IMG/VR virus record: IMGVR_UViG_3300031772_000120
Location: 1-37,442 of that record
Reading direction: 5' to 3' (one strand)
Source: a virus
DNA: 37,442 bases
Under the pieces are notes generated by a model. That model did not search any database. It saw nothing but the letters and a program-made list of their open reading frames with translations, and was not told where the DNA came from. The position numbers and the translations under genes were made by a program. Shown piece after piece: positions 14,175 to 29,473 of this stretch; positions within the stretch are counted from its first letter, which is position 1, and every line of letters begins with the position of its first letter.

Positions 14175-14189
14175 GGTATTTTGGTCAAT

Positions 14190-14466
14190 CACCCCTCCCT
14201 AAAGGGAGGAGCTTGAAAGGCAACTAACAAGCTCGAAGTTGACCAGCCTCAGCTCTAGGGAAACCTGGAGCTACGTTAGGAGCGAATATATAGGTACCGT
14301 GGGATGCTTCTCCAGTCCCACGCTCTACGGTAAGCGGTTAAACAGGCGTACGGGTTAAACCAGTGCTGCTTACTCACAAACCGCTCCATAACTTTGGCGA
14401 GGAGACCATTACCCGGGAAACCGGAGCGCGGGTAACCGCAAGCGGGGTCGAAAGACCCCATTTTTT
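14190..14466 (+). ncRNA. Unassigned highly structured RNA with intrinsic terminator
   Basis: This ~280-nt non-coding stretch is packed with perfect stems. TGGTCAA (14191-14197) closes with TTGACCA (14239-14245), enclosing CCTCCCT/AGGGAGG and GAGCTTG/CAAGCTC. AGCTCTAGG and CCTGGAGCT form a 9-bp stem with a GAAA loop (14251-14272). GTGGGA/TCCCAC, GTAAGC/GCTTAC and TTACCCG/CGGGTAA follow. The end is GGGGTC-GAAA-GACCCC plus TTTTTT (about 14442-14466). Several GNRA tetraloops suggest tertiary folding. I cannot match it to RNase P, tmRNA or 6S RNA, nor to the capsid-gene introns. It may be a phage packaging-type or regulatory RNA. Confidence 0.6.
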
Positions 14467-26570: not shown

Positions 26571-26810
26571 ATGACCGTTTCAATTAGTTCGCTGCCTCCA
26601 CAAATTCAGCAGCGTTACAATGCGAAGCTTCTCAGCACGCCAGAGCGGAACTTAGTTCACATGCTCTTCGCGTCTCCTGTGGAACTTCCAGATAACCAAG
26701 GGTTCATTGACAGACAGTCTAGATATGATCGTTTAGATCTATTTACGACACCTCTCGATGACTCACAATTGAATCCTCCAAGTCAGCAGTTACATCGTGT
26801 TGATGTGGAT
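26571..26810 (+). CDS. Capsid exon 1 (80 codons)
   Basis: Encodes the capsid N-terminus up to QQLHRVDVD. Without splicing, translation would continue into intron A and stop at the TAA at 26844. The last seven bases (TGTGGAT) are the 5' half of P1 for intron A. Confidence 0.8.
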
Positions 26811-29473
26811 AATTACTACAGTCCACATATTAGTAATGCAGCGTAATTGTGTAGGGTACGCGTATATGCAACTTATATCGTTTTAACGAGACAAGTTACA
26901 ATTACTAACGAGGATAGAATTGTGTCCTCGATAAATCTTCTCTGATAATCTTGGAACCCTGACCGCATTGTGGCGCAGGCAACAAGGTGCAAGCAACTGA
27001 AAGGTGTGCAGCATGACAGCAGTAAGCGAGAAGACTCCGAAAGGAGATGCGGTACTCGGAACACCGTGGAAACACAGTGAGGGAAGTGCAATAGGCTTCC
27101 TCGCCATGGACCGAAAATAGGAAATATTTTAATCATTTCGGTCCGTGGACCGAAAATAGGAAATATTTTAATCATTTCGGGCCACGGTCAAAAAAGTAAC
27201 AGGATGCCAGTTCTCAATAGCGCAGCAGCTCGTCTAGGACAAGCTTTGCGCGAAACACAAGACGCCTTGGTTCGAGACAATCTCGAGTCAACAGCTTCTG
27301 TAATTAACTGCGTAAACGGAACAAACGGAGATCTCCCAACAGAGATGGCCATCGAAGACGTAGATGACATCGTAACCGTGTTGCAAAACAACTCGGGCGA
27401 GTACATCACTTCGATTGTTGAAGCAGACCTGAAGTTCGGAACGAGCCCAGTGGGCGATAGCTACGGTTGTATGTTAACAACCCGAATGATCCCCGTGCTT
27501 AACGGCATTACGGGATTCGTGCGGAAGTTCCAATACCCTAACATCAGCCAGACTCTGTCTACTGAATGGGGTGGCGTGAACAACGTGCGTTACTTCGTGT
27601 CTGAGCAGGGTTCTATTACGCCGAATGCAAGCTTACTTGGTAATGACGTGGCTAACTGCTTCGTTGCTGCTAAAGAGGCTTACAAAGTGGTTAAAATGTC
27701 AGACCACTCTAAATCTTCTCTGATTGAGGTGGAAGCCTACGATTATGCGCTAGTCGCGTAATTATGGTGACACTGCGGAAGATGTTTTGATAATATCGTT
27801 TGGCAAACACGTAATGTGAGGCCAAATGAGAGTATGTAGAAGATGTAAAGAAGAAAAAAATGATGAACAATTTGGAAAGCTTAAATGTAGTAAGGACGGC
27901 ATCAATCCAAGATGCCGCAAGTGCTGTATTGATAGCGTCAAGAGATCTAAAAAATCCCCTGAGGCTATTGCTAATAAGGCTAAGTACGTTTCCGAATGGC
28001 AAAGACAGAATAGAGAAAAAAGGCTTAAACAAAGCCGTGATTGGTATGAGAGAAATCTTGAAAAGGCTAGAGACATGTCTCTTGAAGCCACTAAAAAATA
28101 TCTCAGTACTAGACATGGCAAGAACAAAAGAAACCAAAGATCTTCTGATTGGGATAAAAGAAATCCTGAAAAAAGAAAAGCTCATGACAGGGCAATGTAT
28201 GCGGTCGAAACAGGGAAACTTATTCGTCCTTCTTCATGCTCTAAGTGCCAAAAGGAATGTAAACCTCATGCACATCATGAGGATTATTCCAAAGCTCTTG
28301 AAGTCGTTTGGTTGTGTGCTGTCTGTCATTTTTACCTACATCATGAATCAAAACATCACCGTAAGAGAGCAAGCGAGAAGACTCCGAAAGGAGATGCGGT
28401 GCGCCAAACCACTGACGAAAGCAGTGGAGATATCCAGAAATGAGATATCCGCCATATTAAAATATGGTCAACAAGTAATAGATAGTTTGTGGCAAAGTGG
28501 TGGTAAGGCACGTTTTATTTACATGCCTCCAGGGTTAAGTTTGGCTCTGGATAAATCTCTTTTAATTGACTTGGACACCTACAACTATGCTCAAGCAGCT
28601 TAGTCATGGCAACAAGGGGTAAGCAGTGAGCTTGATGCAAATACATGGGTCATTTATACTACCTGTAAACCTATGGAGGTTAGCTATGGTAGAAGAAAGT
28701 AAATCATGTACTAAGTGTCTTGTAAACAAACGACCCGATGAATTTAGGAAAGACCCGAAATATAAGTGCGGTTTGTCCGCTCAGTGCATTGAATGCTGTA
28801 GACAAAAAGAAAGAGAATATGAAGCGAGAAATAAAGAATCTCGTGTTCAAAGGCATCGTGAATGGAGAGATGAAAACAGAGACTCTATCAACGAAAGAAA
28901 TAGAGATCGATGGAATTCTGATCCTGAATGGAAGGCAAGAAAAGACAAGTACAAAGGTATGTACAAGGAATGGAGAGCCAAATATGCCAGTAACTACAAA
29001 AAGTCTAATAGAGATAAATGCAATGCTAGGACTCAACTTCAATATTGGGTTAATAAAGGCGAAGTAAAAAGACCTGACAAGTGCGAGATGTGTGAATCAT
29101 CAGAATATAGGATTGAAGCGCATCATTTCGATTATAGCAAACCGCTTGAAGTTCAGTGGTTTTGTCAGAAGTGCCACCTAAGATTACATCGGTTGTTTAA
29201 AAAAACTCATGTGCAACCTGATCGACTAACCAAAGAGAACTCCGAGGAGGAGTAAGTGATAGTCAAGACTCATAACGAAAGTATGAGAGGAGCATCCGAA
29301 GCGGTGCTCCCGCCATTGGTGATTATGGTCAGTAAGCTTTGGATGGCTGAAAGTAATAGAATGATAACAATGATCCATGCATGCTCCGGCACACTGCCGG
29401 CTGTAGTACATACCAGGGTCAGTGTATCACTCAGGACCTCTGGTTACAAAACCTACGATCAACCGGAATTTAA
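26571..29473 (+). CDS. Major capsid protein, N4-gp56-like, split into five exons
   Basis: Joining 26571-26810, 26850-26915, 27207-27692, 28490-28535 and 29364-29473 gives 948 nt and a 315-residue protein. Family features recur in order: NLVHMLFASPVELP, YATYIVLTRQVTITNED|PVLNSAAARLGQALRETQDALVRD, NCVNGTNGDLPTE, EWGGVNNVRYFVS, AKEAYKVV|WQSGGKARFIYMPPG and CITQDLWLQNLRSTGI. Each junction restores the frame and the spacing I expect from N4-gp56-type coats. Conventional gene calling would see truncated ORFs (26571-26846 and 27204-27761). The stop is followed by AAGGAGG for the next gene. Family assignment is from memory of these coats. Confidence 0.82.
26811..26849 (+). other. Intron A: 39-nt core-less group I-like mini-intron
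   Basis: Exon TGTGGAT (26804-26810) pairs over 7 bp with GTCCACA (26821-26827), with U opposite G at the splice site (P1). CTACA (26816-26820), directly before that guide, pairs over 5 bp with TGTAG, the first five bases of exon 2 (P10). The intron ends in G. Removing it deletes an in-frame TAA and joins VDVD to CRVRVYATY at the expected spacing. After the guide come only 22 nt, ending in AGTAATGCAGCGTAATTG, which recalls the 3' ends of the full introns. There is no room for P3-P8, so excision would need a catalytic core in trans, perhaps intron B's. Confidence 0.6.
26850..26915 (+). CDS. Capsid exon 2 (22 codons)
   Basis: Encodes CRVRVYATYIVLTRQVTITNED, a segment matching the conserved beta-strand region that precedes DPVL in N4-gp56-type coats. 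It has no start codon of its own. It is flanked by intron A (39 nt) and intron B. Its last seven bases (CGAGGAT) form P1 of intron B. Confidence 0.75.
26916..27206 (+). ncRNA. Intron B: 291-nt ORF-less group I-like intron
   Basis: P1: CGAGGAT (26909-26915) with GTCCTCG (26924-26930), 7 bp with a U-G at the splice site. P10: AATTG (26918-26922) with CAGTT (27208-27212). The intron ends in G and joins NED to PVLNSA. The guide is followed by ATAAATCTTCTCTGAT, shared with intron C. A 30-nt block at 27024-27053 is identical to 28371-28400 in intron C. It also has a GAAA-capped stem (CACCGTG/CACAGTG) and a terminal CGCCA...GGTCA element like those of C and D. Group I assignment rests on P1, P10 and the terminal G; the subclass is not assigned. 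Confidence 0.78.
27104..27181 (+). repeat. Tandem pair of 39-bp hairpin repeats inside intron B
   Basis: Units 27104-27142 and 27143-27181 differ at two positions. Each folds into a stem of about 12-13 bp around an AT-rich loop (GGACCGAAA ... TTTCGGTCC). The arms CCATGG, CCGTGG and CCACGG at the unit boundaries let the middle one pair with either neighbour. They extend the hairpin that is only a few base pairs long in introns C and D. Confidence 0.85.
27207..27692 (+). CDS. Capsid exon 3 (162 codons)
   Basis: The largest exon, PVLNSAAARLGQALRETQDALVRD ... to AKEAYKVV. An ATG at 27204, just before the splice junction, makes it look like an independent gene, but those three bases are the end of intron B. 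The last seven bases (AGTGGTT) form P1 of intron C. Confidence 0.82.
27693..28489 (+). ncRNA. Intron C: 797-nt group I-like intron with HNH gene
   Basis: P1: AGTGGTT (27686-27692) with GACCACT (27702-27708), 7 bp with a U-G at the splice site. P10: TGTCA (27697-27701) with TGGCA (28490-28494). The intron ends in G and joins AKEAYKVV to WQSGGKARFIY. It shares the post-guide segment with intron B and a 30-nt core block (28371-28400). It has a CCACTG/CAGTGG stem and a terminal GCCATA/TATGGT hairpin followed by GGTCA. It carries the HNH ORF 27826-28443, whose 3' end reads through the core block. Homing by the endonuclease would explain its spread. Confidence 0.82.
27826..28443 (+). CDS. Intron-encoded HNH homing endonuclease 1
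   Basis: A 205-residue protein. Residues 4-33 form a Cys knuckle pair (CRRC ... CRKC), residues 40-130 a basic, helical DNA-binding region with repeats of W-RN-EK, and residues 138-173 the HNH/treble-clef nuclease (CSKCQKECKPHAHHEDYSKA then WLCAVCHFYLHH). Histidines 150/151 and the CxxC pairs are the expected metal-site residues. The last ~30 codons lie in the intron core, so that tail is probably dispensable. It would cut intron-less capsid genes. Paralogue of the ORF in intron D. Confidence 0.82.
   Translation: MRVCRRCKEEKNDEQFGKLKCSKDGINPRCRKCCIDSVKRSKKSPEAIANKAKYVSEWQRQNREKRLKQSRDWYERNLEKARDMSLEATKKYLSTRHGKNKRNQRSSDWDKRNPEKRKAHDRAMYAVETGKLIRPSSCSKCQKECKPHAHHEDYSKALEVVWLCAVCHFYLHHESKHHRKRASEKTPKGDAVRQTTDESSGDIQK
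28490..28535 (+). CDS. Capsid exon 4 (15 codons plus 1 nt)
   Basis: Encodes WQSGGKARFIYMPPG, matching the conserved FIYRPP motif near the C-terminus of this coat family. Splits a codon with exon 5 (phase 1). Its last seven bases (CCAGGGT) form P1 of intron D. Confidence 0.75.
28536..29363 (+). ncRNA. Intron D: 828-nt group I-like intron with HNH gene
   Basis: P1: CCAGGGT (28529-28535) with GCTCTGG (28544-28550), 7 bp with a U-G at the splice site. The guide is followed by ATAAATCTC, aligning with introns B and C; similarity to C continues for about 57 nt (about 70% identical by eye). Near the 3' end it shares AAGACTC, CCGCCAT and TATGGTCA with C. The 3' splice site after G29363 is placed by alignment of AAGTAATAGAATG with AAGTAACAGGATG in B; P10 is weak, so the 3' site is less certain. 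It carries the second HNH gene. Confidence 0.72.
28686..29255 (+). CDS. Intron-encoded HNH homing endonuclease 2
   Basis: A 189-residue protein from the ATG at 28686, with GGAGG 6 nt upstream (a GTG at 28626 extends it). Same layout as the first: N-terminal knuckles (CTKC ... CIECC), basic helices (REWRDENRDSINERNRDRW), then HNH CEMCESSEYRIEAHHFDYSKP and WFCQKCHLRLHR (about residues 132-170). It is clearly paralogous to the ORF in intron C but diverged, so the two introns probably arose by old duplication or separate entry of related elements. Confidence 0.82.
   Translation: MVEESKSCTKCLVNKRPDEFRKDPKYKCGLSAQCIECCRQKEREYEARNKESRVQRHREWRDENRDSINERNRDRWNSDPEWKARKDKYKGMYKEWRAKYASNYKKSNRDKCNARTQLQYWVNKGEVKRPDKCEMCESSEYRIEAHHFDYSKPLEVQWFCQKCHLRLHRLFKKTHVQPDRLTKENSEEE
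29364..29473 (+). CDS. Capsid exon 5 (last 36 codons)
   Basis: With one base from exon 4 it reads YNNDPCMLRHTAGCSTYQGQCITQDLWLQNLRSTGI and TAA. The ITxDLWxxNLR ending is the conserved C-terminus of the family. It lies in a frame different from the longer ORF at 29256-29501, which therefore is not a gene. Confidence 0.72.

Follow-up and report, generated by a model that had tools for sequence, protein, structure and literature searches.

The virus record IMGVR_UViG_3300031772_000120 of IMG/VR, analysed here over its full length of 37,442 bases (the window), carries a P22-type portal gene and a capsid gene that is split by introns. After codon 80, the capsid frame runs into insert A, a segment of only 39 nucleotides (nt) that contains an in-frame stop codon, and it then resumes in exon 2, a short exon beginning with CRVRVYATYIVLTRQVTITNED. 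Exon 2 is followed by intron B, a complete group I intron, and further capsid introns lie beyond the start of exon 3, at codons 264 and about 279; positions 27204-27758 matched the PHROG major head protein. Insert A, its relation to intron B and the peptide tails encoded by these introns are the subject of this report, and the coordinates of all features are collected in Table 1.

Insert A and intron B in related capsid genes

Exon 3 was used as a query and retrieved 80 viral contigs, and this search, together with further scans and one genome-collection locus, gave a set of 19 distinct inserts, that of the window included, with lengths of 38, 39, 41, 42, 47, 48 and 59 nt (related loci and contigs are designated L001, L002 and so on). 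The 18 others lie at exactly the same capsid codon as the insert of the window. In most relatives, exon 1 continues straight into exon 2, and about 66 of them have neither insert A nor the intron at codon 102, which is intron B. An assembly artefact was rejected, as the window's insert recurs unchanged in another contig record (L001) and exists in 18 different versions besides; the insert is real, and its site is established by the comparison. All 19 inserts end in G and 18 of them end in UG, as do the collected B introns. Furthermore, 14 of the 19 have a length of 3n+2, which is not a multiple of three, and therefore reading through them cannot give capsid protein and these 14 inserts must be skipped or removed.

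At the codon of insert A, the relatives showed no full-length intron from which the insert might have arisen by internal deletion, and no second kind of mini insert was found at other capsid sites or in a second capsid family (L418-L496). Pattern matches outside capsid genes, L097 among them, look like chance matches, and a loose pattern based only on the P1 helix brought up unrelated loci among the matches listed. A phage collection contained no match at the DNA level, and a protein search of this collection returned distant capsids only.

Rfam models matched neither insert A nor a group I intron anywhere in the window, the capsid introns (26916-29365) being unmatched even at an E value of 10; these capsid group I introns are a branch that current Rfam models cover poorly. 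Because of this negative result, the core of intron B was established by alignment of 19 B introns, which gave P3, P4, P6, P7, P8 and P9, and no P2, with compensatory changes in P3 (UCUACUC/GAGUAGA, CCUGAGA/UUCUUGGG and CUUCUC/GAGAAGA). Intron B accompanies all 19 inserts, exon 2 always being 66 nt long in those loci (that of L003 being interrupted by a further intron), and no insert A without intron B was found among the loci collected. In L067, L079 and L087, A and B are the only introns of the capsid gene, and B would therefore be enough for the removal of A. Intron B occurs without A in three loci (L028, L059 and L362), which in a tree of B introns nest inside the A-bearing ones; the deepest branches of this tree carry A, most inner branches being weakly supported. 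L002 and the window are 99.5% and 99.95% identical on the two sides of the region, and the difference between them is exactly the block of A, exon 2 and B. Given this block difference, the tree and the co-occurrence, A and B appear to travel together, and A, exon 2 and B seem to move as one unit.

Intron B in L028 and L030 contains a gene for a LAGLIDADG endonuclease (Pfam PF00961) on the reverse strand, antisense to the capsid gene; the window's B, of 291 nt, has no such gene. A stretch of 33 nt in the P3/P8/P7 part of intron B (27021-27053) is shared, at 97%, with a downstream intron (28368-28400), which suggests an exchange or recent copying of core pieces among the introns of this gene. 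In addition, the P9 region of the window's intron B has two tandem copies of a hairpin-like unit (GGACCGAAAATAGGAAATATTTTAATCATTTCGG; 27113-27180), of which L003 has one.

Guide helices and a tether to exon 2

A sequence-only reading of the window had placed insert A at 26811-26849 with a TAA at 26844, and these boundaries are right, as the frame of exon 1 ends in VDVD and exon 2 resumes at 26850. This reading had also described a P1 helix of 7 base pairs (bp) with U-G at the splice site; the U.G pair is present, and the helix is 8 bp long (26803-26810 with 26821-26828). The perfect 5-nt P10 (26816-26820, CUACA, with 26850-26854, UGUAG) and the terminal G were both recovered. It had further held that nothing else of the ribozyme remains, and indeed the P3-P8 catalytic core is missing, the 38-59 nt of the inserts being filled by the P1 loop, the guide, a tether and a short tail. 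Outside the guides, however, the insert does contain further elements, namely a third helix, the tether, and a coding tail that ends in Ala-Ala-stop. Because the core is absent, insert A is not a group I intron by its own features, yet it appears to work by group I splicing.

The pairings of the window recur throughout the set of 19 loci. P1 has the U.G pair in 19 of 19 and forms 7-8 of its 8 pairs, with compensatory changes in which an exon 1 end of gtGGAT goes with the guide GTCCAC and one of gtCGAT with GTCGAC. P10 forms 3-5 of its 5 pairs and covaries as well: an exon 2 start of tgtag is found with CTACA, tgccg mostly with NGGCA, and tgcag with TTGCA or ATGCA, so that by locus the pairs are CUACA/UGUAG, CGGCA/UGCCG and UUGCA/UGCAG. 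The tether is formed by 8-10 nt directly after the guide, which pair with the end of exon 2; its register is fixed in 18 of the 19 loci, where it stops at the same base, flush against the P1(B) strand. This helix also covaries, the pairs being UUAGUAAU/AUUACUAA in the window, UUAGUGAU/AUCACUAA elsewhere, UUUGUGAU/AUCACAAA in L005 and, by means of G.U, UUGGUGAU/AUCACUAA in L094.

When inserts were swapped between loci, the observed pairing of P1, P10 or the tether was reached in 0 of 2000 cases, and all three dropped. Across 16 distinct rows, pairing is present in 93.8% of cells, and both partners have changed in 7 of the 22 pairs; the covariation score of 0.208 compares with 0.080 for shuffled rows (0/500) and at most 0.031 when the rows were slid. 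The P1, P10 and tether pairings are, on this comparative evidence, under selection. In the local minimum free energy fold of the window sequence, P1(A), the tether and P1(B) are predicted together, with probabilities of 0.93, 0.88 and 1.00, respectively.

Table 1. Positions of the capsid gene parts, pairing strands and intron-encoded tails in the window
Feature	Position	Strand	Remarks
Capsid exon 1	26571..26810	+	Codons 1-80, ending VDVD; high identity to uninterrupted relatives
P1(A) 5' strand, AUGUGGAU, U at splice site	26803..26810	+	Pairs with 26821-26828; compensatory changes at 2 positions
Insert A, putative core-less mini intron, 39 nt, terminal G	26811..26849	+	Missing from most relatives; 19 distinct inserts, 38-59 nt, at same codon
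P10 guide CUACA	26816..26820	+	Pairs with 26850-26854 UGUAG; covaries
P1 guide (internal guide sequence) GUCCACAU	26821..26828	+	Pairs with 26803-26810
Tether strand UUAGUAAU	26830..26837	+	Pairs with exon 2, 26901-26908
Ala-Ala-stop (GCA GCG TAA), in frame with exon 1	26838..26846	+	Degron-like tail NYYSPHISNAA, then stop
In-frame TAA within insert A	26844-26846	+	
Capsid exon 2	26850..26915	+	Codons 81-102, 66 nt; frame resumes at 26850
Tether partner in exon 2, AUUACUAA	26901..26908	+	Directly upstream of P1(B)
P1(B)	26909-26915 with 26924-26930	+	
Intron B, complete group I intron	26916..27206	+	Proposed catalyst for A; core from alignment of 19 B introns
Capsid exon 3	27207..27692	+	Codons 103-264; tblastn to relatives
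Read-through tail of codon-264 intron	27693..27761	+	KMSDHSKSSLIEVEAYDYALVA, then stop
Read-through tail of codon-279 intron	28535..28603	+	Ends in LIDLDTYNYAQAA, then stop; open reading frame translation; same tail in L003
Last capsid exon	29366..29470	+	Codons 281-315; tblastn to relatives

Ala-Ala endings of the intron reading frames

The in-frame tails of the distinct capsid-gene introns carry an ssrA-like feature, that is, a C-terminal Ala-Ala, often after Leu or Ala. The ending Ala-Ala-stop is found in 51 of 63 distinct tails (for example YALAA, YAIAA, LLAA and AQAA), and 54 of 63 end in Ala; in the two other frames of the same introns, it is found in 1 of 126. All 16 distinct tails of insert A have this ending, such as ISDYYALAA in L091 and ISDNYAIAA in L105. 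Ala-Ala-stop is encoded in 19 ways in 48 sequences, and therefore the protein, and not the RNA, seems to be selected. Ten inserts of length 3n+2 have no in-frame stop of their own, and 10 of 10 use an out-of-frame GCC GCG TAA in exon 2, which is given by only 1 of 78 insert-free contexts.

At codon 102, the tail of intron B is LEALAA, followed by stop, where A is absent, whereas none of the 6 distinct B tails has Ala-Ala-stop where A is present. L028 and L022 have nearly the same B intron, with CTCGCAGCATAA and CTCTGAACATAA, respectively, at the tail position; the B of L022 is 250 nt long. Because B has this ending only without A, the insert probably serves as the degron of the A/B pair. Among further phage introns sharing the core motif, the ending Ala-Ala-stop was seen in about 10 of the 30 that continue a long open reading frame upstream of them in frame, and in about 4 of 74 others. 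Introns with this motif in the second capsid family lie at codons 96, 103 and 180 and have the tails ALA, VAIS, TFS and VVFN, each followed by stop; perhaps a different tail rule applies here for another host. The codon-285 intron of L006 is an exception to the Ala-Ala rule, as it is stop-free in frame into the next exon and gives 98 residues to the gene end. Transfer-messenger RNA tags were found in two genome bins with related contigs (L231 and L232), the binning of phage contigs being uncertain: one ending in DGMVLVA in a Verrucomicrobia bin, and ADNSEQEFLQAA in an Acidobacteria bin, each followed by stop.

For phage group I introns, an early in-frame stop has been interpreted as an aid to intron folding (PMC3984707), and intron B is a conventional phage group I intron with such a stop. 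The papers searched do not describe an Ala-Ala degron tail in introns of this type, and a search of the open-licence literature for intron-encoded degrons in group I introns returned nothing relevant. The repressor of mycobacteriophage BPs, of which the unwanted form with an ssrA-like C-terminus is destroyed, resembles the tails described here in its alternative C-terminus; the difference is that it is switched by integration and not by splicing (PMC4557955).

Possible removal of insert A by the core of intron B

From these comparisons, it is fairly probable that insert A is an intron reduced to its guides, which is docked in cis on the ribozyme core of intron B and specifies a degron-like Ala-Ala tail if it is left unspliced. 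Insert A, itself without a catalytic core, would supply P1 for the 5' splice site, P10 for the 3' splice site and the terminal G, and the tether to the end of exon 2 would bring P1(A) next to the ribozyme core of B, the P1(B) strand beginning at the next base. This core would then cleave at U26810 and ligate the first two exons by means of P10 and the terminal G, thus freeing A, and only afterwards remove itself. Removal of both introns would give the protein joins VDVD|CRVR and NED|PVLN. If neither intron were removed, a ribosome coming from exon 1 would stop in A, or out of frame in exon 2, at Ala-Ala-stop. In the window, the unspliced product would consist of exon 1 plus 11 residues ending in Ala-Ala, an ssrA-like signal that would have the truncated capsid destroyed; proteases of the ClpXP type are the likely agents.

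The sequence-only reading had proposed, as its central claim, that the guides are kept, the core is missing and intron B perhaps supplies it, and this is supported by the comparative data. The role of B as supplier agrees with the covariation in 19 relatives, the constant co-occurrence and the tether; the supply in trans assumed at the time gives way to one in cis, which is more likely.

Several observations weigh against this reading. All inserts share one site and are therefore probably of one lineage, in which case the covariation events would be few; L100 has just 3 P10 pairs, the tether is weak in the full-length predicted folds of some loci (0.15 in the window and 0.00 in L230), and L079 is a folding outlier in which neither P1(A) nor the tether is predicted. 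Elsewhere, only about a third of the in-frame introns have the Ala-Ala ending, and it is rare in the second capsid family; the ending is therefore not general, and the intron core does not impose it. Furthermore, we know of no natural precedent for one core serving two P1 helices.

Other explanations must be considered. A ribosome might hop over the insert by translational bypassing, as in gene 60 of phage T4, where a gap of 50 nt stays in the messenger RNA (mRNA); the inserts are of similar size, with a stop near the end and a hairpin at the start. However, the take-off and landing codons of T4 gene 60 are matched, whereas here the take-off codon GAT never has its match before the landing site (TTG, ATG, GTG or AGG), and the P10 covariation, the U.G at the junction and the strict linkage to intron B would be left unexplained, which makes bypassing very improbable. 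The bypass of T4 gene 60 (PMC11194080) is alike in that a phage gene is interrupted by a brief non-coding gap containing a stop. Retention of the insert, with either a broken capsid gene or a truncated product by design and re-initiation of the rest, is conceivable in that the last codon of 18 of the 19 inserts, counted in the frame of exon 2, is ATG, GTG or TTG. Nevertheless, exons 1, 2 and 3 are highly conserved, exon 2 read alone runs into intron B, and covariation in P1 and P10 would be pointless, so that retention deserves very little credence.

Since P1, P10 and a final G all belong to the signals of group I splicing, the insert could also be excised in the group I manner by a catalyst other than B. 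This might be a further intron core within the mRNA, a free intron acting in trans, or a minimal ribozyme that A itself forms with flanking exon; the last has been claimed for the Phialophora introns of 63-75 nt, in which the middle likewise pairs with the 3' exon (PM helix; PMC3160393). Excision by another catalyst is unlikely, because 38-39 nt are too short for a P7 with its guanosine site, intron B is the sole constant companion, with three loci having no other capsid intron, and the tether ends exactly at the P1 of B. With respect to the degron part only, the Ala-Ala endings might be a by-product of RNA structure or stop-codon context, as the introns have a common conserved core (LIDLE frame), which makes their tails related, and the ending is uncommon in the second capsid family. 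The 19 codings, the varied tail lengths, the many sites, the figure for the other frames, the out-of-frame use of exon 2 and the lack of the ending in B when A is present all argue against this, and we regard such a by-product as rather unlikely.

Splicing of insert A by intron B would have partial parallels. The group III introns of Euglena plastids are streamlined introns of about 100 nt without a catalytic core and, like A, depend on outside help; they differ from it in their group II chemistry and their length. An engineered group I spliceozyme removes 100-nt introns in trans, its one ribozyme core recognising both splice sites of a short foreign intron (PMC4094466), but it is artificial, whereas A has the P1 and P10 guides within the removed piece and a natural tether in cis. 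Split trans-splicing group I introns of organelles also separate guide and core; their pieces together make up one complete intron (e.g. PMC3873408), whereas here a complete second intron would have to serve two sites.

The claim of the sequence-only reading that there is no natural precedent was too strong, in view of the degenerate mini group I introns of 56-81 nt in the ribosomal DNA (rDNA) of Phialophora and lichen fungi, which have P1, P7, P10 and a helix between their middle and the 3' exon, and for one of which splicing is reported in the presence of about 300 nt of flanking RNA (PMC3160393). The PaSSU-type fungal introns resemble A in having P1 with U.G, P10 and the helix between middle and 3' exon, and in lacking most of the core; they need long flanking RNA in vitro (PMC3160393). 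They differ in their location in nuclear rDNA, their claimed P7 and autonomous splicing, their omega-U, and the lack of both a neighbouring catalyst and a coding tail. By the features of the Phialophora type, insert A has omega-G and no P7, and only the pairing of its middle with the 3' exon is in common.

Overall, we lean slightly towards a new intron class, a core-less guide module that would borrow the ribozyme of intron B through an exon-based tether, move as A, exon 2 and B, and tag unspliced capsid messages for degradation, with the self-splicing introns of these phages more broadly encoding C-terminal degrons for quality control. If true, this would be the first natural case known to us of one group I ribozyme serving two introns, and recognition and catalysis in separate introns would represent a step often imagined between self-splicing introns and a shared splicing machine. 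The Ala-Ala tails suggest a form of quality control in which unspliced messages give proteins marked for destruction, and destroying a truncated capsid subunit could prevent poisoned assembly.

Finally, a HEARO RNA at positions 14184-14412 is the sole Rfam match in the window (141.8 bits).

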